From NCBI RefSeq assembly GCF_014196495.1, contig NZ_JACIDT010000011.1, positions 62,001-126,000 of the forward strand: DNA of 64,000 nucleotides. Direction: 5' to 3'. Shown here piece after piece: positions 31,511-59,453 of the stretch. Position 1 is the first letter of the stretch. Each line of letters begins with the position of its first letter. A program made the position numbers and the translations under genes. The notes beneath the pieces are model-generated. The model did not search any database. It saw only the letters and a program-made list of their open reading frames with translations, and was not told where the DNA came from. The DNA is from Sphingobium jiangsuense (GTDB lineage: Bacteria; Pseudomonadota; Alphaproteobacteria; Sphingomonadales; Sphingomonadaceae).

Positions 31511-31537
31511 TAGTATCCAATATAGTCTAACAATAAT
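31511..31537. promoter_or_regulatory. Candidate GntR operator upstream of the first Rieske oxygenase gene
   Basis: AT-rich island in a 268-base intergenic region (31422-31689) otherwise without features. TAGTATCCAATATAGT (31511-31526) is identical to 16 bases at 40140-40155, and ATAGTCTAACAAT (31522-31534) matches the palindrome ATTGTATAACAAT at 10 of 13 positions. It stands about 155 bases before the start codon. Confidence 0.5.
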
Positions 31538-31689
31538 GAGTCCGGATGCCCGTGCGGCGCTGGACGGCGTGTCGGGAGAGGGCCAGCGCGAGACGGGAAA
31601 TACCGGTCGGAACTGGCCCATGCTTGTGAACGAGAAGGGATGGCCCGCCGGGGAGCGGCGGCGCGGTTCCGCAATGGAGGGATGATCGC

Positions 31690-32742
31690 ATGTATTTACG
31701 CAATTGCTGGTATCTTGCCGGTTGGCGGAGCGACTTCGCCGATGGGCAAGTCCATGCCGTTACCATCTTGAACGAGCCGCTGGCGGTGTATGTGACCGGC
31801 CACGGCAAGGCCGTCGCGCTCGAGGACCGCTGCCCCCATCGGGCCGCGCCGCTGTCCAAGGGGCGGCGCGAGGGCGACGACATACGCTGCATGTATCATG
31901 GCATCATGTTCGGCCCCGACGGCGCCTGCACCGAACTGCCCGGCCAGCCGGTCATCCCGCCGTCGGTGTGCGTGCGCAGCTATCTGGTGGAGGAACGCCA
32001 TGGCGGCGTCTGGGTCTGGATGGGCGACGCCGCGCTGGCCGACCCGTCGCTGATCCCCGATTTCATCGGCCCCGACAGCGAGGAGTTCGCGATCACCGCG
32101 TCGCATCTGGACATCGCGGCCGAGGGGCAACTGCTGATCGACAATCTGCTCGACGTGTCGCACGCGCCCTATGTGCATGAGGCGACCTTCGGCGCCGGGG
32201 ACCGCAAGACCATCCAGATGCAGATCGAGGGCGAGCATCAGGCGGTGACCACCCGCCTGGCGCGCGGCGTGCACATCGAACGCTGGCATGTGGGGCGGCA
32301 GAAGAACCCCTATGTGCCGGACATGCCGTCCGACGATCTGGTCATCAACGAGGTGAACGTGCCGGGCGTGTTCACGCTGCGGACCCGCTGCTACGCGCCG
32401 GGCGTGCAGCAGCGCTGCGGCGCCGACGGCATCCCCGCCGAGGATCCGATTCTGGAACGCTCGGTCGGGCAGGTCGTCACCCCGGTGGCGCCGGGCCGCT
32501 GCAAGCTGTTCTTCGCGGTGGGGCCATGGGCGCGCCGCGCCGAGCTGAAGCAGCGCGTGTTCGACATCGCCTGCGAGGCGTTCCAGGAGGACGAGGCGAT
32601 CATCGAGGCGCAGCAGCAGATCATCGACAAGACCCCCGACCGGCCGATGATGACGCTGGGGATGGACGGGCCGCTGGTGCGCTACATGAACATCGTGCGG
32701 CGGCTGAAGAAGGAAGAGGAAGGCGAGGCGGTGGCCGCCTGA
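31690..32742 (+). CDS. Rieske non-haem iron oxygenase (VanA/DdmC-like)
   Basis: 350-residue terminal oxygenase. The Rieske [2Fe-2S] ligands are C48, H50 (EDRCPHRAAP) and C67, H70 (CMYHGIMF). The mononuclear iron site follows the dicamba-monooxygenase pattern DNLLDVSHAPYVH: N152, D155, H158, H163. This subgroup (vanillate O-demethylase, dicamba demethylase) removes O-methyl groups or hydroxylates aromatics, taking electrons from a separate reductase or ferredoxin. No reductase or ferredoxin gene is seen in the window. The substrate is unknown. A GGAGGGATGATCGC leader precedes the ATG. Confidence 0.9.
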   Translation: MYLRNCWYLAGWRSDFADGQVHAVTILNEPLAVYVTGHGKAVALEDRCPHRAAPLSKGRREGDDIRCMYHGIMFGPDGACTELPGQPVIPPSVCVRSYLVEERHGGVWVWMGDAALADPSLIPDFIGPDSEEFAITASHLDIAAEGQLLIDNLLDVSHAPYVHEATFGAGDRKTIQMQIEGEHQAVTTRLARGVHIERWHVGRQKNPYVPDMPSDDLVINEVNVPGVFTLRTRCYAPGVQQRCGADGIPAEDPILERSVGQVVTPVAPGRCKLFFAVGPWARRAELKQRVFDIACEAFQEDEAIIEAQQQIIDKTPDRPMMTLGMDGPLVRYMNIVRRLKKEEEGEAVAA

Positions 32743-32805
32743 CGGCCGGGCCATGCATCGATGCGGCGGGGAAGGGCGGGGCGCGGCGGCGATCCCGCCC
32801 TTTCC

Positions 32806-33999
32806 TCATTCGGCGGGCTGGGGATCGGGCTCGCGCGCGACCAGCCGGAAGGTCGCGAGCGCCGAGCCGACGAGGCAGAAGGCGACGACGACCGCAAGCC
32901 CGCCGCCGTCGCCCCGATAGGCGAGGCCCGCGATCCACGAGGCGATCGCGCCCGCGGTGAAGGTCGTCGCCCCGAACAGGGCGGCGGTGGAGCCGCTGCG
33001 CAGAGGATCGACGCCCAATCCCCCCGCCATCGTGTTCGCCTGCACCGGCGCGATGCTGGCGACGACGAGGAAGAGCAGGCCGACCAGCACCGGCAGGCCG
33101 CCCGCACCGGTTGCGGCGAACAGCAGCAGCGCGGAGGCGAAGACCAGCGCGTTGCGGGCCGACAGGCGCAGCACCTGCGCGGGCATGCGCGTGCGGAGCA
33201 GCCTCCGGTTGATCTGGTTGGCGCAGACGAGGCCGACCGAATTGGCGGCGAAGAGGATGCTGAAGGCGCGCGGCGTCATGCCGTATCCGTCGATCAGCAC
33301 CGTCGCGGAATTGGCGACATAGGTGAAGAAGGCCGCGCTGTTGCATGCCGCCGTGGCGAGATAGCCGAGCAGCTGGCGGTTGCGCAGCAGCGCGACATAG
33401 CTGCGGAAAGGATGCTCGAACCGAGCATTGGCGGCGGTGGCGGCGGAGCGGCTTTCGGTGAGGACGGGAAAGGCGAACAGCAGCGTCAGCAGGCTGAACG
33501 CGGCCATGACGAGGAAGATGAGGCGCCATTCGCCGAACTGGATGATCCCCGCGCCGATCATCGGCGCCAGCACCGGCGCCATGCCGCCGATCAGCGCGAG
33601 CAGGGAAAAGAGGCGCGCCGATTCGCGCGCGTCGAGCCGGTCCCGCACCACCGCCCGGCCCGATACCATCACCGCGCAGGCGCCCAGCGCCTGGAACAGG
33701 CGGGCGGCGAGCAGCACGGGGAAGGCGGTCGCCATCGCGGCGACCAGCGAGGCGAGGGTGAACAACGCCAGCCCGGAGAGGATCATCGGCCGCCGCCCCA
33801 GCCGGTCCGACAGCGGACCCGTCACCAGTTGCCCCGCCGCTATGCCGATCAGGAACACCGAGACGCTCTGCCCGGCCAGCCGCGCCGAAATGCCCAGATT
33901 GGCCGCCAAAGCGGGCATGGCGGGCAGGTACATGTCGATGGCCAGCGGCGCGATCGCGCCGAAGGTGGCCAGCAGGATGATTTCTTTACGGGTCAGCAT
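32806..33999 (-). CDS. MFS transporter, Bcr/CflA drug-efflux type
   Basis: 397 residues, 12 predicted membrane helices. MFS motif A is GPLSDRLGRRPM after helix 2, and the helix-1 DMYLPAMPALAANLG region is typical of Bcr/CflA proton-driven efflux pumps. It may export toxic aromatics or their breakdown products. It is convergent with the Rieske gene and divergent from the aromatic-acid-transporter-like gene; the shared 106-base gap holds an operator-like element. Confidence 0.85.
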   Translation of the reverse strand: MLTRKEIILLATFGAIAPLAIDMYLPAMPALAANLGISARLAGQSVSVFLIGIAAGQLVTGPLSDRLGRRPMILSGLALFTLASLVAAMATAFPVLLAARLFQALGACAVMVSGRAVVRDRLDARESARLFSLLALIGGMAPVLAPMIGAGIIQFGEWRLIFLVMAAFSLLTLLFAFPVLTESRSAATAANARFEHPFRSYVALLRNRQLLGYLATAACNSAAFFTYVANSATVLIDGYGMTPRAFSILFAANSVGLVCANQINRRLLRTRMPAQVLRLSARNALVFASALLLFAATGAGGLPVLVGLLFLVVASIAPVQANTMAGGLGVDPLRSGSTAALFGATTFTAGAIASWIAGLAYRGDGGGLAVVVAFCLVGSALATFRLVAREPDPQPAE

Positions 34000-34040
34000 C
34001 GGGCCTCTGGCTGGTTGGGGGTTGCGCCGGGGAAAAAGCG

Positions 34041-34073
34041 ATATACAATAAATCGTATAACATGATGGTATAC
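34041..34073. promoter_or_regulatory. Candidate operator between divergent MFS genes
   Basis: AT-rich segment with CAATAAATCGTATAACATG. The 14 bases AAATCGTATAACAT (34050-34063) recur exactly, in the opposite orientation, at 48033-48046 upstream of the second Rieske gene. A TATAC half-site lies at each edge. Confidence 0.5.
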
Positions 34074-34105
34074 TAAATATGCCGAGAGGTTCAAGGAGAG
34101 AAGCC

Positions 34106-35428
34106 GTGAGTCATGCTGACGCCGGTTCCGGCCGCGCCCGCTGGACGCCCAAGCAGGTTCAGCTGCTGGTGCTGTTGCAGCTCATCTTCATATTCGACGG
34201 GGTCGACATGCAGATCATTGCCGTCGCGCTGCCCGCGATCGTCGGCGACTGGAACTTGCCGCTGTCGGCGTTCGGGCTGGCGATGGCGGCCGGGCATGCC
34301 GGGTCCTTCGTCGGCGCGCCGGTGGTGGGGATGCTGGCGGACCGCTGGGGGCGGAAACCGGTCATCATCGCCGGGGCGCTGCTGTTCGGGACGATGACGA
34401 TGCTGCTGGCGCTGGCACGCGACCCGCAACAACTGGTGCTGTTGCGCTTCATCGCCGGGCTGGGGCTGGGCGGGTGCGTGCCGCCCGCGCTCGCGCTGGT
34501 GACCGAAAGCATGCCCGCCCAGCGGCGCGGCCTGTGCGTCGCGCTGTCGATGGTGTGCCCGCCGATCGGCATCGCGCTGGCCGGGTTGCTGGCGAAATGG
34601 CTGATTCCGGCGATCGGCTGGGAAGGGCTGTTCCTGACCTGCGGGCTGGCGCCGATCGCCATCGTGCTCCTGCTGGTCTTCTTCCTGCCCGAATCCCCGG
34701 CCTTCCTCGCGTTGCGCGGCGGCAACGAGCAGAAGCTCGCCGCGCTGCTCAAGGCGCTGGCGCTGGAGGCGCCCTCGTTCCGGTCGCGGCAGGGAGACGT
34801 GCCGTTCTTCGCCGCCTTCGGCACCATCTTCGCGGCGGAGCGGCGGGTCGCGGTCGCGGGCCTGTTCGCCGCCTTCTTCTTCGGCTATCTGACGATGAGC
34901 CTGGTGCTCGGCTGGCTGCCCTCGATGTTCACCGCGTCGGGCTATCCCCATGCGCTGGCCGCCACCTCCATCTCCATCTTCAGCCTGGCGGGCATCGCCG
35001 GGGTGCTGGCCACCGGCTGGCTGATCATGAACTGCGGCGAGAGGCTGACGACCAACATCCTGATCGGCGGCGGGATAGTGGTCGCGCTGCTGCTGGGCCT
35101 GACGCTGCCCGCGCCCGACCTGCTCCAGTCCCTTCCGCTGGTCAGCATCATGCTGCTGTCCTTGCTGGGCATGACGATGAACGGCTTGGTCACCGCCCTT
35201 TATACCGGCGCGTCGAGCCTGTTCCCGCCCCATGTCCGGTCCAGCGGCATTGGGCTGGGCAGCATGGTCGGCCGATCCGGTGCGATGTTCGGCGGGTTCG
35301 TCGGGCCGTTCGCCATCGGCCAGCATGGGCCATGGGGCTTCTTCCTCGTCGGCGCGATTTTGCTGGGGCTGGCGATGCTCGGTTTCAATCTCCGGCGCCA
35401 GCGGCTGGCGCCCTCGCCCCTGTCGTGA
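34106..35428 (+). CDS. MFS transporter, aromatic acid:H+ symporter-like
   Basis: 440 residues with 12 membrane helices. The first helix carries FDGVDMQIIAVALPAI, matching the D-x-x-D-like helix-1 motif of PcaK/VanK-type aromatic acid symporters, and motif A is GMLADRWGRKPVI. Likely imports an aromatic acid. I chose the GTG at 34106 because AAGGAGAG sits just upstream; an ATG at 34079 adds nine codons but overlaps the operator-like AT-rich region and has no ribosome-binding site. Confidence 0.82.
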   Translation: MSHADAGSGRARWTPKQVQLLVLLQLIFIFDGVDMQIIAVALPAIVGDWNLPLSAFGLAMAAGHAGSFVGAPVVGMLADRWGRKPVIIAGALLFGTMTMLLALARDPQQLVLLRFIAGLGLGGCVPPALALVTESMPAQRRGLCVALSMVCPPIGIALAGLLAKWLIPAIGWEGLFLTCGLAPIAIVLLLVFFLPESPAFLALRGGNEQKLAALLKALALEAPSFRSRQGDVPFFAAFGTIFAAERRVAVAGLFAAFFFGYLTMSLVLGWLPSMFTASGYPHALAATSISIFSLAGIAGVLATGWLIMNCGERLTTNILIGGGIVVALLLGLTLPAPDLLQSLPLVSIMLLSLLGMTMNGLVTALYTGASSLFPPHVRSSGIGLGSMVGRSGAMFGGFVGPFAIGQHGPWGFFLVGAILLGLAMLGFNLRRQRLAPSPLS

Positions 35429-35520
35429 CGTGCCGGGCCATCCCGGCCTTGCATTGCCGCGCGGGCCGGGCTTTTCTGCATTCCGGCCGGGCTTGCGTCC
35501 CGCATCGATATCGTATACTC

Positions 35521-35566
35521 ATATAATATTCAATATGTGATAACAGTCTGACGATAACAGTCTGAC
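35521..35566. promoter_or_regulatory. Candidate operator with tandem repeat upstream of the DoxX-like gene
   Basis: TAATATTCAATAT is followed by ATGTGATAACAGT, both resembling the region's operator. The 14-base GATAACAGTCTGAC occurs twice in direct tandem (35539-35552 and 35553-35566). The start codon lies 56 bases downstream. Confidence 0.45.
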
Positions 35567-35621
35567 CGGGTGAGCGCGGGTGAAGCGACCGGCGCGCCGG
35601 GGGACATGAGGAGAGGAACGA

Positions 35622-36128
35622 ATGACGGACATGACCATGGGGGCAGGCGCCCGGCAACCGGGCGCGCGGCGCGAGGGGCGGGCCTTCACCATCTTCATCT
35701 ATGCGGTGCAGTTCTTCTTCGGCGGCTGGTTCCTCGCCCATGGCGCCAATCACTGGCTCGAATTCTTCCCCCGGCCGTCGGGGTCGTCGTCCACCTCGCA
35801 TGAGCTGATCGCCGCGCTCAACCATTCGGGCCTGTTCGTGATGGTGAAGGCGCTGGAGATCGTGACCGGCGTGCTGCTGCTTGCCAACCGCTTCGTGCCG
35901 CTGGCAGCGGTCGCGGCCTTTCCCGTCACCCTGTCGATCGCGCATCTCAACCTCGTCGCCAATGACGATGCGATGAGCCATGCGGTCGGGGTTATCATCA
36001 TCCTGCTCAACGGTCTGATCGCGCTCGGCCATCTCGACAAGTTCCTGCCGATGCTGGTGATGAACAATGGCGACCCGACCGATCGGGGGCTGCGCCAGCT
36101 GTTCGGCCGCCGCCGCGACGAGCGCTGA
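35622..36128 (+). CDS. DoxX-like small membrane protein (copy 1)
   Basis: 168 residues with four predicted membrane helices (about 25-45, 72-92, 95-115, 122-142) and a basic C-terminal tail. It shares the pattern ...K-x-L-E-I-x-x-G-x-L-L-L-A-N-R-F-x-P-L with three other membrane proteins in this region (36666, 40397, 45083). DoxX-family proteins are inner-membrane proteins associated with quinone-linked or oxidative stress redox complexes; the function here is not known. It heads a three-gene set with an NTF2-like gene and a second DoxX-like gene. Confidence 0.75.
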   Translation: MTDMTMGAGARQPGARREGRAFTIFIYAVQFFFGGWFLAHGANHWLEFFPRPSGSSSTSHELIAALNHSGLFVMVKALEIVTGVLLLANRFVPLAAVAAFPVTLSIAHLNLVANDDAMSHAVGVIIILLNGLIALGHLDKFLPMLVMNNGDPTDRGLRQLFGRRRDER

Positions 36129-36165
36129 TCCGGCCGATCTCCCAATCGAATAAAAGGAAAAGACG

Positions 36166-37316: not shown

Positions 37317-37451
37317 GGCGCGTGAAGGAACGTTGCCCGTGTGGGCGGTGTGGGGAAGGGCTGATATAGCCCCGATCGTCACCCTGAGCCTGGTTGGCTG
37401 CGCTGGCCTTCGGCTCAGCGGCCATTTCCCCGGATTGAGCAGCTTGATGGA

Positions 37452-37474
37452 GCTGAAACAAGTTCAGCATGACG
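37452..37474. repeat. Short intergenic palindromic element
   Basis: GCTGAA (37452-37457) and TTCAGC (37463-37468) flank ACAAG, followed by ATGACG. The same words (tgaaacaagttcagcatgac) resemble a short dispersed repeat I associate with sphingomonad genomes; copy number cannot be checked here. The 282-base gap 37317-37598 holds this, a terminator and no gene. Confidence 0.35.
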
Positions 37475-37544
37475 ATTGAAGGCGAAGGTCCACTTCTGCC
37501 CACCGTCACTCATTGCGGCGAGTTCACAAAACAGCATGACCGCC

Positions 37545-37577
37545 CAAAAAGAACGGCGGCCCGCAAGGACCGCCGCT
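37545..37577 (-). terminator. Rho-independent terminator of the first TonB receptor gene
   Basis: Read on the minus strand, CGGCGGTCC, a TTGC loop and GGGCCGCCG (37554-37575) form a GC-rich stem followed by TTCTTTTT. It lies about 22 bases after the stop codon of the receptor gene. Confidence 0.8.
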
Positions 37578-40058: not shown

Positions 40059-40139
40059 ATCAACTTCCTCTCCCCGTGATTGCTTCGTTTGGCCCGGCAC
40101 GGCCGCTCAGCAGACGGTGCGGGCAGGTGTCTACTCTAA

Positions 40140-40166
40140 TAGTATCCAATATAGTTAGTCAATAAT
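40140..40166. promoter_or_regulatory. Candidate operator for the first TonB receptor gene
   Basis: TAGTATCCAATATAGT (40140-40155) is identical to 31511-31526, and ATAGTTAGTCAAT (40151-40163) is the adjacent partner element. It stands about 80 bases upstream of the minus-strand start at 40058. Confidence 0.5.
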
Positions 40167-40300: not shown

Positions 40301-40327
40301 TATAGTATTCAATATAATATGCAATTA
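40301..40327. promoter_or_regulatory. Candidate operator for the DoxX-like gene at 40397
   Basis: TAGTATTCAATATAAT (40303-40318), then ATGCAATTAT. It differs from the 31511 and 40140 copies at few positions and stands about 70 bases before the start. Confidence 0.45.
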
Positions 40328-41029: not shown

Positions 41030-41488
41030 TCAGGGCCGCCGCAGCGGCGCGCGGCTGAGGTCGTTGCCCGCGTCGGTCGTCTTGCGCAGCAGGGCGTGGA
41101 AGGTGCGGCGCTCCTCCTCCGACAGGCAGGCGACGATATCCTCCTGCACCCGCTCCACCCAGGGGGTGGCGGATTCCAACACCCTTTCCCCCTCGGCGGT
41201 CAGCGTCAGGATGCGCGCGCGCCGGTCCTTCGCGCTGGTTTCGCGCAGCACCAGCCCCTTCTGCGCCAGCCGGTCGACCACGCCGCCGATGGTTGCGCGA
41301 TCATAGGCGATCAGTCCGGCGAGCGTCCCCTGGTCCAGCCCCGGATGGTCGTGAAGCGTTGCCATCGCGGCATATTGCACCGATGTGAGGTCCAGCCCCG
41401 CCTCGGCCATCCGTGCGGCGAAAAGCGATACGGATATCTGTTGCAGGCGGCGGATCAGGTGGCCGGGCATGATGTGCAGGCTGCTCAT
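41030..41488 (-). CDS. MarR-family transcriptional regulator
   Basis: 152 residues with the winged-helix MarR fold: LIRRLQQISVSLFA, LTSVQYAAMATLHDHPG, the recognition helix region LIAYDRATIGGVVDRLAQKG, and the wing KDRRARILTLTAEG. MarR proteins usually repress catabolic or efflux genes and are released by aromatic ligands. It is divergent from the first SDR gene across 131 bases that include an AATTGTATATTATAT element, so it may control itself and that gene. Confidence 0.92.
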   Translation of the reverse strand: MSSLHIMPGHLIRRLQQISVSLFAARMAEAGLDLTSVQYAAMATLHDHPGLDQGTLAGLIAYDRATIGGVVDRLAQKGLVLRETSAKDRRARILTLTAEGERVLESATPWVERVQEDIVACLSEEERRTFHALLRKTTDAGNDLSRAPLRRP

Positions 41489-41565: not shown

Positions 41566-41596
41566 AATTGTATATTATATCGTCATTCAATATAAT
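41566..41596. promoter_or_regulatory. Candidate operator upstream of the first SDR gene
   Basis: AATTGTATATTAT (41566-41578), then CGTCATTCAATATAAT (41581-41596), aligning with the other operator-like sites. It lies between divergent marR and SDR genes, 24 bases before the SDR start; a MarR site is an alternative reading. Confidence 0.45.
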
Positions 41597-42426: not shown

Positions 42427-42765
42427 ACAGTGCTAAAAACGGCGGCCTTCCGGCGTCGCCGCGCCCCGTGGCGCGTCTCTCTACGGAGCAATGTTAGCGA
42501 AAAATGTACTCAAATTTGTATAATTTTTTTGTAGACAATCTTTGCCGGTGCGGGCATTTGTACCATGGAGCAACAAAGCGGGGAATCGGATGTCCGGCAA
42601 GGATGGCGTTCCCGTAGTTCTGCCTTGTTCGGCACGGTTTTCGACCTGTTTTCATGGATATGAAGCGATGAGGGAAATATCCGGGAAGCAGACCGACAGG
42701 CCAAAGCAGGGCCGGCAAGTCAATCGATAACAGATAATTGAGATGGATTGCGGAGAGGGGATATA
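42427..42765. other. Long leader region of the second TonB receptor gene
   Basis: 339 bases with no credible gene. It contains a weak terminator-like stem CGCGCC/GGCGCG (42460-42475) followed by TCTCTCT, ending the SDR transcript. The operator-like element at 42518-42540 follows, then about 220 bases of untranslated leader before the receptor start. Confidence 0.5.
42518..42540. promoter_or_regulatory. Candidate promoter/operator of the second TonB receptor gene
   Basis: The 22 bases at 42518-42539 (GTATAATTTTTTTGTAGACA plus AT) match 49250-49271, upstream of the third SDR gene, at 21 of 22 positions. They contain TATAAT and a TTGTAGACAAT palindrome-like part. Confidence 0.5.
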
Positions 42766-46255: not shown

Positions 46256-46259
46256 TCCC

Positions 46260-47987: not shown

Positions 47988-48002
47988 AATGGTTAGTCAA
48001 TA
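47988..48002. promoter_or_regulatory. Candidate operator upstream of SDR 2
   Basis: ATGGTTAGTCAAT (47989-48001) shares GTTAGTCAAT with the receptor site at 40151-40163. It stands about 60 bases from the minus-strand SDR start, in the 175-base gap divergent to the Rieske gene. Confidence 0.4.
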
Positions 48003-48030
48003 TGATAGTGGATCAATCGCCGCTTCTTGA

Positions 48031-48057
48031 CAATGTTATACGATTTAATATAACAAT
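48031..48057. promoter_or_regulatory. Candidate operator upstream of the second Rieske gene
   Basis: ATGTTATACGATTT (48033-48046) is the exact reverse complement of 34050-34063. An ATATAACAAT half-site follows. Start codon 46 bases downstream. Confidence 0.5.
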
Positions 48058-48102: not shown

Positions 48103-49206
48103 ATGCTGAAATATCTGCGGAACTGCTGGTACGCGGCGGCCTATGCGGACGAGGTGGGCGACACTCCGCTCGAACGGCAGCTGCTCGGCCATCATGTCGT
48201 GCTGTTCCGCGACGAGGCGGGCCGGGCCGCGATATTGGAGGATCGCTGCCCCCACCGTTTCGCGCCGCTTTCCTCCGGGCAGGTGGTGGGCGATACCATC
48301 CAGTGCCCCTATCACGGCCTGCGCTTCGACCGCACCGGCGCCTGCACGCACAATCCGCACATGAAGGGCGGCGGCCCGCTGAAGGCCGCGTCGGTGCGGT
48401 CCTGGCCGGTGCTGGAGAAATACGGCATCCTCTGGCTTTGGCCGGGCGACCCGGAACTGGCCCGGCCGGAGGCGCTGCCGCGCGTCGAGTTTCTCGAACG
48501 GCCGGAAGAATATAGCGTCGTCAAGGGCCTGCTGCATGTGCGCGGCCATTATGAACTGGTGGTCGACAATCTGCTGGACCTCAGCCATGCCGCCTATATC
48601 CACCCGCAATTCGCGGGCGGGCAGTACAGCATCGAGGAATTGCTGGCCGCGACGACGCAGAAGCTGGAGCGGCGGGACCGGTCGATCGTCAACCACCGGA
48701 TGCGGAGCGGACTGGCCGCCCCCGCCGCCAGCCAGGCGCTGTTCGGCTTCGATGCGGATATGCCGGTGCACACCGAATCCACGATGACCTGGCATCCGCC
48801 CGCGATGCTGGATTTCGCGGCGGGCAGCTGGGTCGTGGATACGCCGAAGGAGGAAGGCGCGCATATCCCGCAGCTGCATTTCATCACGCCGGAAACCGAA
48901 TTCACCTCGCATTATTTCTTCGTCAACGGCCGCAACCGGCGTCGCGACGATCCCGAGGTCGACAAGGCGCTGCTCGATTTCTTCGACCTCGCCTTCGCGC
49001 GGCAGGACGAGCCGATGATCGAGAAGGTACAGCGGCGCATGGGGGCGGTGAGCGACATCAACGAGCTGCACCCGATCCTGCTGGCGACCGACGCGGCGCC
49101 GGTTTCGGCCCGCCGCCTGCTGGCGCAGCTGATCGCGGAAGAGGAAAGGGCGGCCGGGCAGGGCGGACCGGGCGGGCCGGACAGGGCGACCGTCGCGGCC
49201 GAATAG
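48103..49206 (+). CDS. Rieske non-haem iron oxygenase (VanA/DdmC-like, second)
   Basis: 367 residues. Rieske ligands are C49, H51 (DRCPHRFAP) and C68, H71 (CPYHGLRF), at the same numbers as in dicamba monooxygenase. The mononuclear iron motif DNLLDLSHAAYIH gives N156, D159, H162 and H167. It is therefore a complete terminal oxygenase of the O-demethylase group, with an unusual long Gly/Pro-rich tail (GQGGPGGPDRAT). Electron donors are not encoded nearby. It has its own operator-like site and is followed by a separate SDR promoter. Confidence 0.9.
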   Translation: MLKYLRNCWYAAAYADEVGDTPLERQLLGHHVVLFRDEAGRAAILEDRCPHRFAPLSSGQVVGDTIQCPYHGLRFDRTGACTHNPHMKGGGPLKAASVRSWPVLEKYGILWLWPGDPELARPEALPRVEFLERPEEYSVVKGLLHVRGHYELVVDNLLDLSHAAYIHPQFAGGQYSIEELLAATTQKLERRDRSIVNHRMRSGLAAPAASQALFGFDADMPVHTESTMTWHPPAMLDFAAGSWVVDTPKEEGAHIPQLHFITPETEFTSHYFFVNGRNRRRDDPEVDKALLDFFDLAFARQDEPMIEKVQRRMGAVSDINELHPILLATDAAPVSARRLLAQLIAEEERAAGQGGPGGPDRATVAAE

Positions 49207-49248
49207 CGCCGGTGCATGGCCCCGCTGGCGGCTTGCATCTCGCAAAAT

Positions 49249-49271
49249 AGTATAATTTTTCTGTAGACAAT
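49249..49271. promoter_or_regulatory. Candidate promoter/operator of SDR 3
   Basis: GTATAATTTTTCTGTAGACA plus AT (49250-49271), 21 of 22 identical to 42518-42539. TATAAT may serve as a -10 element with the palindrome-like part near the start of transcription. SDR 3 begins 50 bases later. Confidence 0.5.
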
Positions 49272-50670: not shown

Positions 50671-52074
50671 GTGCGGGAAGGCGGCGTCAGCGGAAACAGT
50701 GCACGGGACGCGCCGCCCGAAGGGCAGGAGGGCCTGCCCGTTCCCCGGCGCTACTGGGCGATAGCCGGGCTCTGCCTTTCCACCGCCGCGATCGTTCTCG
50801 ACGGGGCGGTCGTCGCCGTCGCGCTGCCGACCATCACCCGCGATCTGGGCATCAGCCCGTCCAGCTCCGTGCATGTCGTCACCATCTACCAGCTCGTCGC
50901 CGTCGTCAGCCTGATCCCGATGGCGGCGCTGGGCGACCGGCTCGGCTATCGCGCGGTCTACCGCTTCGGCCTGTCGCTGCTGACGGTTTCGGTGCTGCTC
51001 TGCTTCTTCGTCAAGGGGCTGATCCCGCTGCTGATGCTGCGGTTCGCGCAGGCGATCGGCGCCTCCCTCTCGCTCAGCGTGTCCTCCGCCCTGCTGCGGG
51101 AGGTGTATCCGGCGCGGATATTGGGGCGCGGCCTCGCGCTCAACAGCATGATCGTATCGGTCTTCACCTCGGTCGCGCCGACGCTGGGCGGGGCCATCCT
51201 CGCCTATGCGCGCTGGCCGATGGTCTTTGCGAGCGCGGTACCTTTTGCGCTCGCCGCGCTGCTGCTGTCGCGCAGCATGCCCGATCCGGTCCGGCGCAGC
51301 GGCAGCTTCGATTTCGGCGCCGCGCTGCTCTACGGCTGCACCATGGCGATGCTGTTCGGGGCGATGGACGGCAATGTCGGCTTCGATCCGGTCGCGCGGG
51401 TCGCGCTGCTCGCCGGGGCGATCCTGCTCGGCCTGAACCTCTATCGCCGCGAAAGCCGCAGGGAACGGCCCGTCATCCCCGTCGACCTGCTGCGCCAGCC
51501 GGTGCTGGGCCTGTCCGCGCTGGGATCGGTGCTGTGCTTCATGGCGAGCATGGCGGTGATCGTCATGCTGCCCTTCCGGCTGGAGATGCTGCACGGCTTC
51601 ACCACGCCGCAGATCGGGCTCATCATGTCGATCTGGCCGCTGACCACGCTGGTGGTGGCGCCGGTCGTGGGCCTGCTCAGCGACCGGATACCGGCGCGGC
51701 TGATCGGCACGGTGGGCATGGCGGTGGCGACGCTCGCGCTGTGCCTGCTGGCGGAGATGGACCGGGGCGGCGCGGCCGATTTCTACTGGCGGCTGGCGCT
51801 GTGCGCGTTCGGCTTCGCCTGCTTCACCGCGTCGAACGCGCGGCTCATCCTCGCCCATTCGCCGCGCGACCGCGCCGCCTCGGCCGGCAGCCTGATCTCG
51901 ACCGCGCGGCTGACCGGGCAGAGCATGGGCGCGATCCTCGCCGGGACGGTATTGTCGGCCGGGGCGATCGCCAGCGGCGGCTCCTTCTATCTGCTGGCCG
52001 CACTCACCGCGCTGACCGGCCTGTGCAGCGTCAGCCGGGGCGCGAAGCCCGGCGGTCAGTCGGCGGCCCAGTAG
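50671..52074 (+). CDS. MFS transporter, DHA2 (EmrB/QacA) type
   Basis: 467 residues with about 14 hydrophobic helices. The first helix carries AAIVLDGAVVAVALPTI, the DHA2-family signature (LDxxVVxVALP), and motif A is ALGDRLGYRAVY. Likely exports a toxic intermediate or drug. The start is GTG at 50671 with GGAAGAGA upstream. Its 3' end overlaps that of the convergent GntR gene by 19 bases. Confidence 0.85.
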   Translation: MREGGVSGNSARDAPPEGQEGLPVPRRYWAIAGLCLSTAAIVLDGAVVAVALPTITRDLGISPSSSVHVVTIYQLVAVVSLIPMAALGDRLGYRAVYRFGLSLLTVSVLLCFFVKGLIPLLMLRFAQAIGASLSLSVSSALLREVYPARILGRGLALNSMIVSVFTSVAPTLGGAILAYARWPMVFASAVPFALAALLLSRSMPDPVRRSGSFDFGAALLYGCTMAMLFGAMDGNVGFDPVARVALLAGAILLGLNLYRRESRRERPVIPVDLLRQPVLGLSALGSVLCFMASMAVIVMLPFRLEMLHGFTTPQIGLIMSIWPLTTLVVAPVVGLLSDRIPARLIGTVGMAVATLALCLLAEMDRGGAADFYWRLALCAFGFACFTASNARLILAHSPRDRAASAGSLISTARLTGQSMGAILAGTVLSAGAIASGGSFYLLAALTALTGLCSVSRGAKPGGQSAAQ

Positions 52075-52736
52075 CCCGGCATCATGTCGAACATCTCGCT
52101 CAGCAGCTGCTCGATCCTGTCGCGGTCCTTCTCATAGGCGGCGAGCAGCGCGTCGCGATCCTGCGCGACGAGCGCGTCGTACATCGCCTTCTCGCCGGTC
52201 ACCGACGCATCGTCGGGCAGCAGCGCCCGGAACCGGTCGGTCAGCGTCCACAGCCGCATCGCCTCGCGCAGCAGCGTCTTGTGCGGCGACAGGCCGAACA
52301 TCAGCTCCCGCGCCTGGGTGAGGGCCTCCATCCAGTTTTCCCGATTGGCGAGGGTGCGGGGCCGGGAAATGATGTCGAAGCAGCCCTTGATGCGCTTCAG
52401 CTCCGCCTTGGTGGGCCAGCGCGCGGTGCGGAGCAGCTCTCCCTCCAGCCAGCGGCGCATCCGGTACAGCTCCATCGCCTCCGAGCGGGAGAGCTTCGCG
52501 ACGAAATAGCCCCGGTTGCGGTCGTGCTGGAGCAGCCCTTCGGCGTGCAGCTGCTTGAGCGCTTCGCGCACCGGCACCTTGCTGATCGCATAGTCCTCCG
52601 CAAGGCCGGTCTGGGTCAGGTGCTGGCCGGGCAGCATCATGCCGCGCAGGATAGACCGGCGGATGATGTCCACGATGCGGTCGGACAAGGCCCCTTCCGG
52701 GGCGGGAGCGGCGGCGATGCTGGCGTGCGATGTCAT
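52056..52736 (-). CDS. GntR-family regulator, FCD type (1)
   Basis: 226 residues: winged helix (about 15-80: RIVDIIRRSILRGMMLPG and VPVREALKQLHAEGLLQ) and FCD ligand domain (about 90-220). It is a clear paralogue of the regulator at 56162 (shared VPVREALK, RWPT.AEL, LTDR.RALP). It is the last gene of a leftward operon MFS, alcohol dehydrogenase, GntR, and no operator-like site lies directly before it. Confidence 0.9.
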   Translation of the reverse strand: MTSHASIAAAPAPEGALSDRIVDIIRRSILRGMMLPGQHLTQTGLAEDYAISKVPVREALKQLHAEGLLQHDRNRGYFVAKLSRSEAMELYRMRRWLEGELLRTARWPTKAELKRIKGCFDIISRPRTLANRENWMEALTQARELMFGLSPHKTLLREAMRLWTLTDRFRALLPDDASVTGEKAMYDALVAQDRDALLAAYEKDRDRIEQLLSEMFDMMPGYWAAD

Positions 52737-53880: not shown

Positions 53881-53881
53881 A

Positions 53882-55090
53882 TCAGGCCTCCCTGGGCTTC
53901 AAGGTGACGGCGGGCCTGATCCGCCCGCTCAAGAGGATGAACGCGACCAGCAGCGGCGGTATCGCGAACAGCAGGTAGAGGCCGGAGCGCCCGGCGCCGA
54001 ATTGCAGCGCCAGCCCCGCGAGGATCGGCCCGGCGGTGGCGCCCAGCCGCCCGATGCCGATGGCCAGGCCGGTGCCCGCCGCGCGCACCTCCGCCGGGAA
54101 CAGCAGCGGCGTGCTGGCATAGAGGCTGGTCATCGCGCCCGCCATCACCAGCCCGACGAGGGCGGAGGCGGCGTAGATCGTCCACAGGGCGTCGGTCGTC
54201 CCGGCGAACAGCGCGATCGCGAGGCTGAAGGCGAGGAAATAGACGCTGGCGATGCGCACGAGGCCGAGCCGGTCGGCCAGCAGCCCGAACAGCAGCGGCC
54301 CTATCAGGCTGCCGATGTTGACGATGGTCATCGCCGTCGCCCCGACCTGTTCCGGCACCGCGAGCGAGACGGTGAGGCGCGCGGTCCACAGCAGGATGAA
54401 ATAGAAGCTGATCATGTTGAGGAAGAAGGCGAGGCAGATGGCGATGGTGTTGCCGCGCTGCGTCTCGCCGAACAATTGGGCGCGCATGGTGGCTGGCGGG
54501 CGCGGCCCGGCCGCGCCGTTTTCCCGCGCCGCCGGTTCCGGCAGGGTGAAGAGGTTGACGAGGAACACCAGCAGCGCCAGCGCGCCGCCGAGCAGGAAGA
54601 CGATCTGCCAGCCATGCGTCATCATCAGGCCGATGGCGAGGCCGCCCGCCAGCGTCGAGCCGAGCGGATAGCCCGCCGAGAAGATCGCCATCACCGTGTT
54701 GCGCCGGTCGGGCGGCGCGATTTCGGCCACCACCGTGTTGAGCGTGGCGAGCACGCCGCCGATGCCGAGGCCGGTCAGCAGCAGCATCGCCAGCAGTTGC
54801 GTGACATTGGCCGCCGCCGCCGCGCCGAACATGCCGAGCGCCACCAGCAGCAGCGAGGCGAGCGTGACCTTGCGCCGCCCGAACCGGTCGGCGAAGGGCG
54901 ATATGACAAGCGAACCGAGCATCATCCCCGCCGGGCCGGAAGCGAAGACCAGCCCCAGCATTGCGGGATCGAGGTTCCACACCCGCTCGATCGCCTTGCC
55001 GATGAAGGCGACGGCGACGACGCCGTAGCCGTCGACGAGATTGCCCAATATTGCCCCGCCGATGGCGAGCGACCGCGTCGTGGACGGCAC
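53882..55090 (-). CDS. MFS transporter, aromatic acid:H+ symporter-like (2)
   Basis: 402 residues, 12 helices. The helix-1 motif LVDGYGVVAVAFIG and motif A ISPFADRFGRRKVT resemble the AAHS family (PcaK, BenK). Probably imports an aromatic acid. The GTG start at 55090 has GAGGGGATCAAAG upstream. It is the first gene of the operon with the alcohol dehydrogenase and GntR regulator 1. Confidence 0.82.
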   Translation of the reverse strand: MPSTTRSLAIGGAILGNLVDGYGVVAVAFIGKAIERVWNLDPAMLGLVFASGPAGMMLGSLVISPFADRFGRRKVTLASLLLVALGMFGAAAAANVTQLLAMLLLTGLGIGGVLATLNTVVAEIAPPDRRNTVMAIFSAGYPLGSTLAGGLAIGLMMTHGWQIVFLLGGALALLVFLVNLFTLPEPAARENGAAGPRPPATMRAQLFGETQRGNTIAICLAFFLNMISFYFILLWTARLTVSLAVPEQVGATAMTIVNIGSLIGPLLFGLLADRLGLVRIASVYFLAFSLAIALFAGTTDALWTIYAASALVGLVMAGAMTSLYASTPLLFPAEVRAAGTGLAIGIGRLGATAGPILAGLALQFGAGRSGLYLLFAIPPLLVAFILLSGRIRPAVTLKPREA

Positions 55091-55115
55091 CTTTGATCCC
55101 CTCAGTTTGCTATGA

Positions 55116-55140
55116 CTATAATGCCTAACAATTTAATATT
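55116..55140. promoter_or_regulatory. Candidate operator upstream of the MFS-ADH-GntR operon
   Basis: ATAATGCCTAACAATTTAAT; the core AATGCCTAACAAT (55120-55132) aligns with ATTGTATAACAAT. Thirty bases before the minus-strand MFS start. Confidence 0.4.
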
Positions 55141-55250
55141 CAGCATTTCCGCTCTTCGCTGACAAGCCCAAAAGGGGCGGCGGCGGGACGGAGGCTGAAA
55201 AATGCCGGTACCATGCGGGTTTTGCCTCCCCTCGGAAAAGAATCATTCAC

Positions 55251-55275
55251 TATTGTATAACAATAATGAATACCA
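55251..55275. promoter_or_regulatory. Best operator-like palindrome of the region
   Basis: ATTGTATAACAAT (55252-55264): five-base arms ATTGT and ACAAT around a three-base centre, the form typical of FCD-type GntR operators. Upstream of the amidohydrolase gene (start 55315) and divergent from the MFS operon. Confidence 0.55.
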
Positions 55276-55314
55276 TAATAGAAAAGCAGGTTGAAGGACA
55301 AGGGGGTAGGCTCA

Positions 55315-56154
55315 ATGTATGATTCCCACGCGCATGTGATTTCGGACGATCTGGCGGCGTTTCCGGCCATGGACGCCGCCGATCCCGCGGTCGCGGCGCG
55401 GTTGCGGGATCCGTTCACGGCGGAAAGGCTGTTGCGCGAAATGGACGGCGCGGGGGTGGGCAAGGCGCTGCTGGTGCAGCGCGGCCAGATCTATGGTTTC
55501 GACAATCGCTATATCCTCGCCGCCGCCGGGGCCAGCGGCGGCAGGCTGAAGGCGGTGTGCGGCGTCGATGCCGCCGATCCCGGCTGCGGCGCCGCCGTCC
55601 GGCGGCTGCGCGAGGAAGGCGCGGCGGGCGTCCGGCTGATGGCGCGGCTGGGCGAGCGGAGCTTCGGCTGGCTGGACGGCGAGCATGCCGGCGGCTTCTG
55701 GCGGGCGGCGGTGGACTGCGCGCTGCCGGTCTGCGTCCACTTTTTCGGCTGGAATCGCGAGGAGGGGCTGGAGCGGCTGGAAAGCCTGCTGGATCGCCAC
55801 CCGGTCGCCCATCTGGTCATCGACCATCTGACCAACGCGCCGATTCAGAGCGCGACCGAGTGCGGCATCGATGCGCCGGTGCGGCGGATCAGCGAGCGTG
55901 GCTCAGTTGCGCTGAAATTCACCGCCATCCCGCTCAACGATCTGGCCGAGCGGGGGATCGACGCGGGGCGAGTGCTGGACGCCTATCTCGCGCTGTTCGG
56001 GGCGGACCGGCTGCTGTGGGGATCGGACGTCACCCAGTCCAGGGGCGGCTATGAGGATCTGGCGGCGAGCGGCCGGGCCGCCGTCGCCGGCTTCCCCGCC
56101 GACATCCGCGAGCGGCTGCTTCAGGCCAATGTCGCGCGCATCTACGGCCTGTAG
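55315..56154 (+). CDS. Amidohydrolase 2-family protein
   Basis: 279-residue TIM-barrel metal-dependent hydrolase. HxH is MYDSHAHV, later histidines occur in VCVHFFGWN and VIDHLTNAP, and the C-terminal aspartate is in RLLWGSDVTQS. Family members hydrolyse or decarboxylate ring-derived acids and lactones. I chose the ATG at 55315 because GGGGGTAGG precedes it; a TTG eight codons earlier is the only longer option. It is transcribed alone, toward the convergent GntR gene 2. Confidence 0.85.
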   Translation: MYDSHAHVISDDLAAFPAMDAADPAVAARLRDPFTAERLLREMDGAGVGKALLVQRGQIYGFDNRYILAAAGASGGRLKAVCGVDAADPGCGAAVRRLREEGAAGVRLMARLGERSFGWLDGEHAGGFWRAAVDCALPVCVHFFGWNREEGLERLESLLDRHPVAHLVIDHLTNAPIQSATECGIDAPVRRISERGSVALKFTAIPLNDLAERGIDAGRVLDAYLALFGADRLLWGSDVTQSRGGYEDLAASGRAAVAGFPADIRERLLQANVARIYGL

Positions 56155-56161
56155 GGGGCGC

Positions 56162-56833
56162 TTACAGTCCCCGGTCCTCCAGGATGGACAGCACCTCCTC
56201 CTCGAAGGCGCGCCGCCTGTTGGCCCGGACCTTCAGCAGCTTCTTGGTGTCCTGCTGCGCCAGCGCGGCGACGAGGTCGGCCTTGTTGACGATGGTGCGC
56301 GCGGTCGAGGCGCGGCGCGGCAGCGGCACCAGCGCGCGGTAGCGATCCGTCAGCGACCAGTAGCGCATCGCCTCGCGCACCATGATCTTGTTGGGCGAAA
56401 GGTCGAACAGCGCATGATGGAAATCCTGATGCCTCGACCACCATTCCGCCCGGTTGCCCTCGTTGAGCAGGCGCTCCAGCTCCTCGGCGCGGGCCCTGAA
56501 ATCGTCCAGCTCGGCCTCGGTCGGCCAGCGGATCGTCTTCAACAGCTCATCCTCCACCATGTCGCGCAGGCGGAAATATTGGCGGGCTTCGCTGGCGGAA
56601 AAGCGGGCGACGAAGAAGCCGCGATTGGGGTCATGCTCGACCACGCCCTCGGCGGAGAGCAGCTTCAGCGCCTCGCGCACCGGCACGCGGCTCGCCGAGA
56701 ATTGCTCGGCCAGTTCGGTCTGCCCCAGCCGGATGCCGGGGGAATAATGGCCGCAGGCGATCAGGGTGCGCAATTTGCCGGCGATGACCGAGGGAACGGC
56801 GTCTGCGGGCTGCTTTTCCAATTTGGTTGCCAC
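56162..56833 (-). CDS. GntR-family regulator, FCD type (2), likely autoregulated
   Basis: 223 residues: winged helix with VPVREALKLLSAEGVV and FCD domain including DFHHALFDLSPNK. A paralogue of the regulator at 52056. The GTG start is preceded by GTTGTATGACAAT (56852-56864), an 11 of 13 match to the palindrome at 55252, only 18 bases upstream. This makes it the best candidate for the regulator that reads the operator family in this region. It lies 8 bases from the convergent amidohydrolase stop. Confidence 0.9.
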   Translation of the reverse strand: MATKLEKQPADAVPSVIAGKLRTLIACGHYSPGIRLGQTELAEQFSASRVPVREALKLLSAEGVVEHDPNRGFFVARFSASEARQYFRLRDMVEDELLKTIRWPTEAELDDFRARAEELERLLNEGNRAEWWSRHQDFHHALFDLSPNKIMVREAMRYWSLTDRYRALVPLPRRASTARTIVNKADLVAALAQQDTKKLLKVRANRRRAFEEEVLSILEDRGL

Positions 56834-56851
56834 TTTCAGTCTCTATATGGT

Positions 56852-56864
56852 GTTGTATGACAAT
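56852..56864. promoter_or_regulatory. Candidate autoregulatory operator of GntR 2
   Basis: GTTGTATGACAAT, followed by GATG as ATTGTATAACAAT at 55252 is followed by AATG. It stands directly before the GntR 2 start codon. Confidence 0.5.
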
Positions 56865-56958
56865 GATGTAGGCAAAATTCCTCAATTTGGAAAGCGGGAA
56901 CAGAAAAAGGGCGAAAATCCGGCGTATCCGGTGCCGCCCCTTCCGCGCCGCGCCGCTG

Positions 56959-58176
56959 CTATTTGCGCCGGTTGCGCAGCGTGAACTCGGACGGCTTGAG
57001 GCCGCAGGCGGCGCGGCCGAAGCTCGCCATCGCCGTGTCCCAGGTGAAGGCGAAATGCTGCGCGGCGCTGTTGACGTCGCGCCACACCCGCTGGAGCGCA
57101 TGGCCGTCATAGATGCCGGTGCCGCCCGATGCCTCGAAGATGCGCGACGCGGCATAGCGCGAGGTCTGCGCCGCCCATGCCCAGTCGCGCGGGATGCGCG
57201 CCCGTTCCAGCGGGGTGATGTCCGCCGGGGTGCGCGCGCGGTCGATCGCCTCGGCATCGCTGACGACCAGCGCCAGCGCCGCGTCCACATCCGCCGCCGC
57301 CTCGGCGATGCGCGCATAGGTCGCCGCCTGCTCGCCGATCTCGACATCGCCCGCGCCGTCGAGCCGTTCGCCCAGCTGCCGGGCGAAGGCGGCGATCGCG
57401 CCCTTCGCCATGCCGATCGGCGCGCCGATGATGGAGAAGGGCGCGATGTCGGCGAAGGGCATGTGATAGACGGCGCGTTCGTGCCGCTGCGCGCCGGGGG
57501 AATTGCCGCTCAGCATGTCGGCGAGCGCCACCGAGCGATGGGCCGGGATGAACGCGTCGGCGATGCGGATGGTGCGGCTGCCGGTGCCGCGCATGCCGAT
57601 GGTGAACCAGTCGTCCACCACCTCTATGTCGGACCGGGGCACGACGAAGAAGCGCGGTTCGAAGCTGCCGTCGGCGCGCGTCACCCCGTTGCCGATGATC
57701 ACCCAGTCGGCGAAGTCGATGCCGGAACAGAAGCGGCCGTCCCCGCCGGTCAGGCGATAGCCGCCCTCGACCGCCTCCACCGTGCCGCCCAGCCGGAACA
57801 CGGTGGCGATCAGCGCGTCGGGATCGGCGAACACATCCTCCTGCGCCTGTGCCGGGAACAGGTTGAGCAGCCAGCTGTGCCCCGCCAGCACGCCATAGAC
57901 CCAGCCGGTCGAGCCGCACACGGCGGCGATCTCGGCGGTGACGCGCACCAGATCGGCGAAGCCCAGCTCGCTGCCGCCCAGTTCGCGCGGGGTGACGATG
58001 TTGAACAGGCCGGTCGCCTTGATTTCGGCGATGGTCTCTTCCGGCACGCGGCGGTCCGCATCGACGCCTCGCGCCCGTTCGGCGATGCCGGGCAGCAGCG
58101 CGCGGATGTGGGCCAGCGCGTCGGCGCTGCTTTCGATTCGGGGGCGATCCGCGCCGATTTTCAGATTCGTAGCCAT
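56959..58176 (-). CDS. Flavin-dependent monooxygenase, HsaA/acyl-CoA-dehydrogenase-like
   Basis: 405 residues, acyl-CoA dehydrogenase fold. The N-terminal helical domain ends in CGSTGWVYGVLAGHSW. The middle beta domain has GRFCSGIDFADWVIIG and GMRGTGSRTIRI, and the C-terminal helices carry GGTGIYDGHALQRVWRD. These features fit two-component flavin hydroxylases that act on phenols (HsaA, HpaB-like group); they need a separate flavin reductase, not seen here. It follows the BNR-repeat gene within 20 bases. The ATG at 58176 has AGGAAAAGGATCATC upstream. Confidence 0.85.
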   Translation of the reverse strand: MATNLKIGADRPRIESSADALAHIRALLPGIAERARGVDADRRVPEETIAEIKATGLFNIVTPRELGGSELGFADLVRVTAEIAAVCGSTGWVYGVLAGHSWLLNLFPAQAQEDVFADPDALIATVFRLGGTVEAVEGGYRLTGGDGRFCSGIDFADWVIIGNGVTRADGSFEPRFFVVPRSDIEVVDDWFTIGMRGTGSRTIRIADAFIPAHRSVALADMLSGNSPGAQRHERAVYHMPFADIAPFSIIGAPIGMAKGAIAAFARQLGERLDGAGDVEIGEQAATYARIAEAAADVDAALALVVSDAEAIDRARTPADITPLERARIPRDWAWAAQTSRYAASRIFEASGGTGIYDGHALQRVWRDVNSAAQHFAFTWDTAMASFGRAACGLKPSEFTLRNRRK

Positions 58177-58196
58177 GATGATCCTTTTCCTGCCGC

Positions 58197-59348
58197 TCAG
58201 CCTTGCGCGGCGATTTCCTGCTGCTTCAGCTCCGCCTCGATCTCGGCCCGCCGCTCGTCCGACAGGAACCAGCGATAATGCCCGCCCTTGGAAATGGGCG
58301 GCAGCCGATCGGCCAGCAGCGACCAGTGCGCGCCGCAATCGTCGCTGTGGAATATCTCGCCGGTGGCGGTCCCGGCATAGAGGCTGAAGCCATCGGGCCG
58401 CACATGCATGCCCATCGCCTCGATATTGCCGGTGATCTTCGGCAGGCCGGTGCCGAGCGGCGCCCATGTCTCGCCGCCATCCGCGCTGTAGAGCACGGTC
58501 GGGTCGGCCATCGGCACATCCTGCTCGCGCCATTTGCGCGGCGCATTCTGGGGCCCGCCCATGATGACGCCGTTTTCGTCGCGCGGGTCGAGGAACATCG
58601 CGTCGGGATAGCCGATGCGATCGTCGCGCGTGGTCAGGTGCGTCCATTGCCCATGGCGGCAGCGATACAGCCCCTCGCCTCCGTTCATCAGGAAATCGTC
58701 GGGGTCGGACGGGCGGAAGAGCACGCGATGATTGTCGTTGTAGAAGAAATCCTCGCCCGATTCATAGCCGGTGACCTCGTCCCAGCTCTCGCCGCCGTCG
58801 GCCGATTTCAGCAGCGCGCCCTGCTCGATGCAGATATAGATGTCGTCGGGACGGGCCGGGTGGAAGGCGATGTTCTTCACATGGGCGACATGGGGCGGGG
58901 GCGGGAAGGTCCATTTATCGGTGTTCTTCACCTTCAGCATGCCGGGCAGCGCCTGCCAGCTGCGGCCGAGATCGGTGGATTTGTAGAGCACCGGCGGTTC
59001 GGTACCGAGCCAGAGCACCGCGCCTTCGGGCCGCTGCTGCACGGCGAGCGTATAGATGTGGCGGCTTTCCAGCCCCTCGTTGCACGGCGCCCAGCTCTCT
59101 CCCCGGTCGTCGCTGACCCATAGGCCCGCATCATAATGGCCGCCCGCGAACAGCAGGCCGGAGCGCGGTTCCAGCGCCAGCGCGCTGATATGATGGTCGA
59201 TCAGCTTGCGGCCGGTCAGCCGCCAGTCCCCGCCGGGCGCGCGCTCGAAAATATGGATGCCGTGAAGCGTCGCGGCCAGCAGGCGCGTCGGCGGGCCGTC
59301 GCCTTCCGTCACCACGCCGCCGTTGCAAGACAATAACGCAAGCATCAA
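58197..59348 (-). CDS. BNR/VPS10-type beta-propeller protein
   Basis: 383 residues with repeated sialidase-type Asp-box motifs: SDDRGESWAP, STDLGRSWQ, SADGGESWDE, SADGGETWAP and SDDCGAHWS. Each begins a propeller blade. No signal peptide is obvious, so it may be cytosolic. Such proteins are often called glycosyl hydrolases or sortilin-like but frequently have no enzyme activity. It is the first gene of a leftward pair with the flavin monooxygenase, divergent from the ring-cleavage operon. Confidence 0.8.
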   Translation of the reverse strand: MMLALLSCNGGVVTEGDGPPTRLLAATLHGIHIFERAPGGDWRLTGRKLIDHHISALALEPRSGLLFAGGHYDAGLWVSDDRGESWAPCNEGLESRHIYTLAVQQRPEGAVLWLGTEPPVLYKSTDLGRSWQALPGMLKVKNTDKWTFPPPPHVAHVKNIAFHPARPDDIYICIEQGALLKSADGGESWDEVTGYESGEDFFYNDNHRVLFRPSDPDDFLMNGGEGLYRCRHGQWTHLTTRDDRIGYPDAMFLDPRDENGVIMGGPQNAPRKWREQDVPMADPTVLYSADGGETWAPLGTGLPKITGNIEAMGMHVRPDGFSLYAGTATGEIFHSDDCGAHWSLLADRLPPISKGGHYRWFLSDERRAEIEAELKQQEIAAQG

Positions 59349-59428
59349 AAACCCTCCCTCTCCGCGCCGAATGCCGGTGGACCGAGGCGAATATTATCGG
59401 CGAAGCGGATATTGACCTCTTAGGCAAG

Positions 59429-59453
59429 ATTGTTATACATTTATGTATCCAAT
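59429..59453. promoter_or_regulatory. Candidate operator between the propeller and ring-cleavage operons
   Basis: ATTGTTATACAT (59429-59440), 12 of 13 to the reverse palindrome including the next base, followed by GTATCCAAT. It stands 21 bases before the plus-strand start at 59474 and serves both directions. Confidence 0.5.

Follow-up and report, generated by a model that had tools for sequence, protein, structure and literature searches.

The window analyzed here is a 64,000-nucleotide stretch of the Sphingobium jiangsuense genome (4.8 Mb, 67 contigs), namely bases 62001–126000 of the 157-kb contig C11. According to domain searches, its right half is filled by a catabolic gene cluster, and the intergenic regions of this cluster share a family of AT-rich, operator-like elements; these elements and the protein that would bind them are the subject of this report. 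The enzymes encoded comprise two VanA-type Rieske oxygenases, short-chain dehydrogenases/reductases (SDRs), SnoaL-like proteins, a zinc alcohol dehydrogenase (ADH), two amidohydrolases (one of them LigY-like), a LigB-type dioxygenase, and two LigK-like proteins. Transport is represented by two TonB receptors and MFS transporters, and regulation by one MarR-type and two FCD-type GntR proteins (GntR1 and GntR2). A LigXa-type oxygenase, an amidohydrolase, and a GCV_T-domain protein follow directly beyond the window end. No RNA family was found in the window at the gathering score. The genes on which the analysis turns are the following:

41030..41488, minus strand: MarR-type regulator (PF01047), not conserved with the sites
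48103..49206, plus strand: Rieske2, VanA-type oxygenase (Pfam), presumed target
52056..52736, minus strand: GntR1, paralogous FCD-type GntR (PF00392, 55 bits; PF07729, 29 bits at a cut-off of 24.3)
56162..56833, minus strand: GntR2, FCD-type (VanR-group) GntR, likeliest binder (PF00392, 60.7 bits; PF07729, 47.2 bits; model and fold matches)
59474..60547, plus strand: LigY-like C-C hydrolase (5vn5 match, 462 bits), presumed target
60547..61539, plus strand: LigB-type (LigZ-like) dioxygenase (Pfam LigB), presumed target along with the LigY-like gene

The original prediction had listed 14 elements with ATTGnnTAC-like half-sites. A search with ATTGTATAACAAT allowing up to three mismatches returned 14 rows at 13 places (55252 matches on both strands), compared with 1.29 expected from 100 shuffles, where the largest count was 5. 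All rows lay in the cluster, within 31522–59441, and none in 1–31500, which bears out both the element family and its claimed absence from the first 29 kb. This search recovered 9 of the listed places, a 12-mer scan added 40303, 41566, and 42527, and 35535 and 49259 were recovered only within the 25-bp matrix sites 35510 and 49247. The arm-spacer-arm form ascribed to FCD-type GntR proteins was present as an exact 13-mer ATTGTATAACAAT at 55252–55264. All 14 places were therefore recovered, but the listed elements are halves of paired sites of 25–26 bp; the prediction had missed the arrangement of the operator as two dyads in fixed register.

The unit consists of two abutting pseudo-palindromes (ATTGTnnnACAAT or ATnGTATnCAAT) with centers 12–13 bp apart and an overall length of 25–26 bp. 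A 12-mer and a 13-mer abut into 25 bp, for example, at 31510–31534, 40139–40163, 41567–41591, 55252–55276, and 59429–59453. De novo expectation maximization (EM) on 24 cluster intergenic regions yielded a 25-bp palindrome with a log-likelihood ratio (LLR) of 122.6, against 40.9–53.6 for four resampled sets and 44.0 for 15 left-half regions, a comparison that somewhat favors the real data, as the nulls had fewer random starts than the real runs (own genome, 15 versus 40; relatives, 6 versus 12). Single dyads reached an LLR of only 41–42 versus 23–29 for the nulls. Pairing was also seen in a non-circular test with the plain consensus ATTGTnnnACAAT as anchor (up to two mismatches), in which no spacing was presumed and one anchor pair may count twice. 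The cluster contained 16 anchors against 1.4 expected, with a second dyad 9 times at 13 bp and 4 times at the next-best offset, and the relatives described below contained 38 against 8.9 expected, with 11 at 13 bp and 5 at the next-best offset. The 13-bp distance was preferred over every other offset between 7 and 45. Laxer anchors with three mismatches gave 111 in the relatives versus 77 expected, 22 of them with a second dyad at 13 bp. A separate offset profile was partly circular, its sites having been picked with the two-dyad matrix, and the spacing of short half-site words (ATnG/CnAT) was noisy (own top offset 21, 6 versus 1.0; relatives 43, then 10, 2, 22, 9, and 21). Operators of FCD GntR proteins are short palindromes of the TnGTnnnACnA type, and the dyads fit this type, both in the consensus from the relatives, ATTGTAATACAAT, and in the exact match at 55252.

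Two matrices were applied to the sites, one learned de novo from the own-genome cluster (own) and one learned from other genomes only (relatives'). The sites and their scores are listed here:

31510..31534: paired-dyad site, 155 bp before Rieske1; own 28.5 bits, relatives' 31.0
34052..34076: paired-dyad site between the divergent MFS1 and MFS2; own 29.8 bits, relatives' 23.3
35510..35534: paired-dyad site before orf168 (35622); own 30.6 bits, next register 35522 relatives' 22.8
40139..40163: paired-dyad site, 38 bp before TonB receptor 1; own 30.9 bits, relatives' 25.1
40302..40326: paired-dyad site near the orf213 5' end; own 19.6 bits, relatives' 26.6
41567..41591: paired-dyad site between MarR and SDR1; own 31.9 bits, relatives' 25.6
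42515..42539: paired-dyad site, 208 bp before TonB receptor 2; own 36.4 bits, register 42502 relatives' 27.0
47989..48013: weak dyad site in the SDR2–Rieske2 intergenic region; own 14.4 bits, neighboring register 47977 21.8
48033..48057: paired-dyad site, flanked at 45 bp by SDR2 and by Rieske2; own 26.3 bits, relatives' 33.9 (26-bp register)
49247..49271: paired-dyad site, 50 bp before SDR3; own 34.1 bits, relatives' 17.0
55120..55144: weaker site, 29 bp before the MFS4-ADH-GntR1 run; own 16.6 bits, relatives' 19.2 in register 55107
55252..55276: paired-dyad site with the exact ATTGTATAACAAT, 14 bp before amidohydrolase 1; own 35.4 bits, relatives' 29.9
56852..56876: site 18 bp before GntR2; own 21.0 bits, relatives' 16.8–18.5
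59429..59453: paired-dyad site, 20 bp before the LigY-like gene; own 30.2 bits, relatives' 26.5

The site at 34052–34076 ends 2 bp before the start of the longest open reading frame of MFS2, and therefore the true MFS2 start may lie further downstream. An additional site is located directly past the window at L001:352–376 (window position 64352).

Within the genome, the sites are confined to about 33 kb, from 31.5 to 64.4 kb. When 115 kb of the contig was scanned with the own matrix, the best 22 windows, some of them overlapping registers, all fell into this range, and the best window elsewhere scored 14.4 bits. With the relatives' matrix at 22 bits or more, 14 peaks at 11 places were found in the 33.1 kb of the cluster compared with 1 peak in 482 kb of same-genome control DNA; places were counted because peaks of either matrix include overlapping registers of one site. 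At 12 bits or more, the contrast for the cluster was smaller (28 versus 5.2 expected). Model R1, a sequence-only profile of 12 sites that recovers 8 of these training sites at E ≤ 10, gave eight matches in the whole genome at the same threshold, all in the cluster. As these are all training sites, the informative point is the absence of matches elsewhere. The motif is thus not equally common outside the cluster, and the original prediction withstood the genome-wide check that could have refuted it. The proposed single GntR regulon over 28 kb holds with regard to a shared operator family and a local regulon but extends past 59453 to window position 64352. That the shared family marks one local regulon is well supported.

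The paired sites are conserved across genera. Genome G108, taken as Sphingobium sp. SYK-6 (NC_015976.1), belongs to the same genus group as the window genome. With the own matrix at 16 bits or more, it showed 10 peaks in the 60 kb around its GntR2 cluster versus 5 in a 400-kb control. Sites were located before the orthologues of Rieske2 (2080829, 24.4 bits; window counterpart 48033), SDR3 (2082065, 25.5 bits; 49247), the amidohydrolase (2086636, 21.3 bits; 55252), and ligY (2098794, 15.8 bits; 59429), and the Rieske gene that comes next was likewise preceded by one (2105160, 16.1 bits; 64352). Eleven further loci gave 43 peaks versus 6.2 expected with the same matrix, and a site of at least 17 bits was present in 15 of 17 relative loci, with record labels of Novosphingobium, Sphingobium, Sphingomonas, Parasphingopyxis, Hyphomonadaceae, and others. 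When EM was applied to 132 intergenic regions from 12 of the 17 loci, own genome excluded, it returned ATTGTTATACAAT-ATTGTATAACAAT with an LLR of 271 against 77–87 for the nulls; at width 25, EM had also settled in another register (LLR 198), and width 24 reached 232. The loci left out were L056, L063, and G126 (near duplicates), G017 (contig edge, broken GntR2), and L060 (without the cluster). A low-power cmsearch with a short model over 26 sources found three sites outside the own genome (L055, L056, and L058), and the genus scan found one (G034). The latter is a strong paired site at 3192–3217 of a 4.4-kb contig (G034 contig C11) that gave no match to any cluster gene of the window.

GntR1 and GntR2 each combine a winged helix-turn-helix domain with an FCD domain, and for GntR2 both domain scores exceed the cut-off. 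The original prediction had referred to both GntR proteins, but their paralogy (43% identity) had gone unseen. The predicted structure of GntR2 (predicted local distance difference test score (pLDDT) 89.7; GntR1 of lower quality, 79.1) was, among the matches listed, closest to McbR and AlkR/VanR structures, and the six-helix effector domain that is a trait of the VanR group was present. The recognition segment S-[RK]-V-P-[VI]-R-E-A-L-K is common to both paralogues. Relatives of GntR2 (E ≤ 1e-30) were detected in 7 of the 94 genus genomes, own included, and 13 named loci show at least 58% identity.

GntR2 is the best-supported regulator, because paired sites accompany its relatives in other genera and precede gntR2 itself, where the dyad starts 18 bp before the gene as originally claimed. 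It is further favored because the sites persist without GntR1 in two relatives, the MarR gene is not conserved, and no LysR gene is present on the contig. An FCD-type GntR as binder, as first proposed, is therefore still the best reading, although binding is inferred and GntR1 is dispensable for the sites in those two relatives. The elements are probably paired-dyad operators of a local lignin-aromatics regulon with GntR2, a member of the FCD/VanR group, as repressor. GntR2 would bind as two adjacent dimers, side by side, one per dyad. Occupied operators would lie at or beside the promoters of the transporters, Rieske oxygenases, SDRs, amidohydrolase, LigY/LigZ-like ring-cleavage genes, and gntR2 itself, and the cluster would be repressed until an aromatic acid of the pathway releases the protein. 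Given the site 18 bp before gntR2 and that before the MFS4-ADH-GntR1 run, repression with self-repression, and not activation, is the simple reading. Most likely, one repressor switches the whole gene neighborhood on together. If so, it governs a second LigY/LigZ-type catabolic cluster, also present in the lignin degrader SYK-6, and gntR2 would be a direct handle on an aromatic pathway whose inducer would point to the substrate. A narrow literature search yielded no recognized report of this operator or of either regulator.

Known systems resemble this arrangement in part. Sections of the work on Atu1419 of Agrobacterium fabrum, a VanR-group FCD GntR repressor, describe single 10-mer sites 109–190 bp apart that are bridged by a tetramer, and Arg45 as the guanine-reading residue (PMC7797058). 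In contrast, the dyads here abut in pairs. Window GntR2 also keeps at most two of the four metal ligands of the Atu1419 type (one Asn and three His): His135 and His139 occupy the first two positions, and histidine is absent past residue 140. This is no verdict on VanR-group membership because it is not established that all members carry the metal site. The operator of Caulobacter VanR, which controls a VanA-type O-demethylase, is ATTGGATCCAAT; this 12-bp palindrome much resembles one half of the paired site. The same letters occur in a passage of PMC7970624 that names no species. C. crescentus VanR is described in part of another source as a GntR-type repressor of vanAB (PMC6888825), and, unlike the regulator of the window cluster, it serves the vanillate system. 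For E. coli NanR, excerpts report GntR dimers side by side on (GGTATA)3, with cooperativity conferred by a 32-residue N-terminal extension (PMC8012715). NanR units contain GTATA and, as here, are closely repeated at a set spacing. However, there are three repeats in NanR versus two pseudo-palindromes here, and the extension is missing from GntR2; the GntR domain match begins at residue 17 in both paralogues. NanR thus demonstrates that close packing of FCD GntR dimers on repeated units is possible, and the paired-dyad register would provide a clear test case for such packing without the extension.

Several observations weigh against a GntR2-bound paired operator. The relative loci were chosen by GntR2, so that its presence is given by construction and only the sites, GntR1, and MarR were free to vary. 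Two of the 17 loci, G017 and L060, have no site of at least 17 bits. G140, the genome of L060, encodes a GntR2 with 60% identity, yet both the cluster and paired sites are absent within about 10 kb of it. In G017, the GntR2 relative is split across two reading frames near a contig end (contig C63, about 198–844). R1 matched in 2 of the 94 genus genomes and missed five of seven GntR2 carriers, in a scan of low power. The sites at 47989 and 55120 are the weakest, and the best non-cluster window of the 115 kb equals the former. With laxer anchors in the relatives, counts were also raised at 10 bp (15) and 11 bp (14). The matrices are partly driven by AT content: at the other ligY locus of SYK-6, an AT-rich island that does not resemble a dyad pair scores 22.7 bits.

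Among the alternatives, joint action of GntR1 and GntR2, as mixed assemblies or with one dyad each, survives best but is unlikely. Of the 18 genomes that encode a GntR2 relative, 14 also have a GntR1-type gene; the Ser-Lys-Val-Pro signature was seen in 13 of these partners, and G136 was included on its score only. The residue matching Atu1419 Arg45 is consistently Arg in GntR2 (10/10 aligned sequences) and Lys in GntR1 (8/8), and the effector-domain His pair of window GntR2 is replaced by Leu/Arg-type residues in GntR1. However, the partner is missing from G133, G138, G140, and G017, and the first two still carry paired sites. In the metagenome-assembled G133, a syntenic cluster lies on one 39.5-kb contig and includes several paired sites; GntR2 is present there without its paralogue, the interval from MFS3 to ADH lacking GntR1. 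G138 encodes two GntR2-type proteins and no GntR1-type. GntR1 is therefore not needed for the paired operator, and the sites keep no fixed orientation relative to the gene. A little less likely still is a mixed repressor on the paired dyads, formed by two paralogues of which one has a degenerate effector domain and which differ by Arg versus Lys at the guanine-reading residue; in it, one paralogue would sense the aromatic compound and the other would set register and cooperativity.

Binding by the MarR protein is improbable. A paired site lies 78 bp before its gene, and parts of the report on Sphingobium sp. SYK-6 describe a MarR-type regulator, DdvR, that represses ligXa and ddvT (PMC6874591). 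The ligXa-ligZ-ligY-ddvT system described there shares LigXa, LigY, and LigZ types, TonB receptors, and local control with the window cluster, but uses a MarR-type repressor in place of the GntR protein proposed here. However, no MarR match at E ≤ 1e-15, a limit that diverged MarRs could escape, was found in the 17 relative loci, 15 of which have a site of at least 17 bits, and the other SYK-6 ligY locus shows no clear dyad pairs. It is equally improbable that the elements are no more than AT-rich sigma-70 promoters in a genome of high GC content. There is overlap with promoter-like hexamers at four sites (31486–31514, 40162–40133, 55093–55122, and 59412–59441), but such matches were not clearly above chance (6 versus 3.0, SD 1.7; 3 versus 1.7, SD 1.3). 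This reading was rejected, since such sites are almost absent elsewhere in the genome scan and the 482-kb control, base-composition-matched resampling fails to yield the motif, and 13-bp pairing is foreign to the promoter consensus. The ATAC-N7-GTAT sequence is a LysR-type box, and although the palindromic own-genome consensus can be read as ATAC and GTAT 7 bp apart, a LysR-type activator is hardly credible and was rejected, as none of the 41 LysR HTH matches of the genome lies on contig C11 and the two words are 6 bp apart in several of the best sites from the relatives.

The LigY/LigZ/LigK/LigXa-type gene set spans window positions 59474–63584 and L001:390–4040, and the cluster represents a second pathway of this type, paralogous to the published ligXa-ligZ-ligY cluster. 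In SYK-6, the LigY-like protein has a counterpart of 91% identity encoded at 2,099 kb and one of 61% identity encoded at 821 kb, the latter gene being taken as the published ligY. Identity with the published 5,5'-dehydrodivanillate (DDVA) cluster, first assumed from the 5vn5 match of the LigY-like protein, was dropped because the closest SYK-6 gene is not the crystallized LigY, SYK-6 holding a second, nearer 5vn5 match elsewhere. A perfect ATTGGATCCAAT palindrome lies at L001:2563–2574 (window 66563), directly before the GCV_T-domain gene, and matches the Caulobacter VanR operator. O-demethylases such as LigM are of the same kind as the GCV_T-domain protein.

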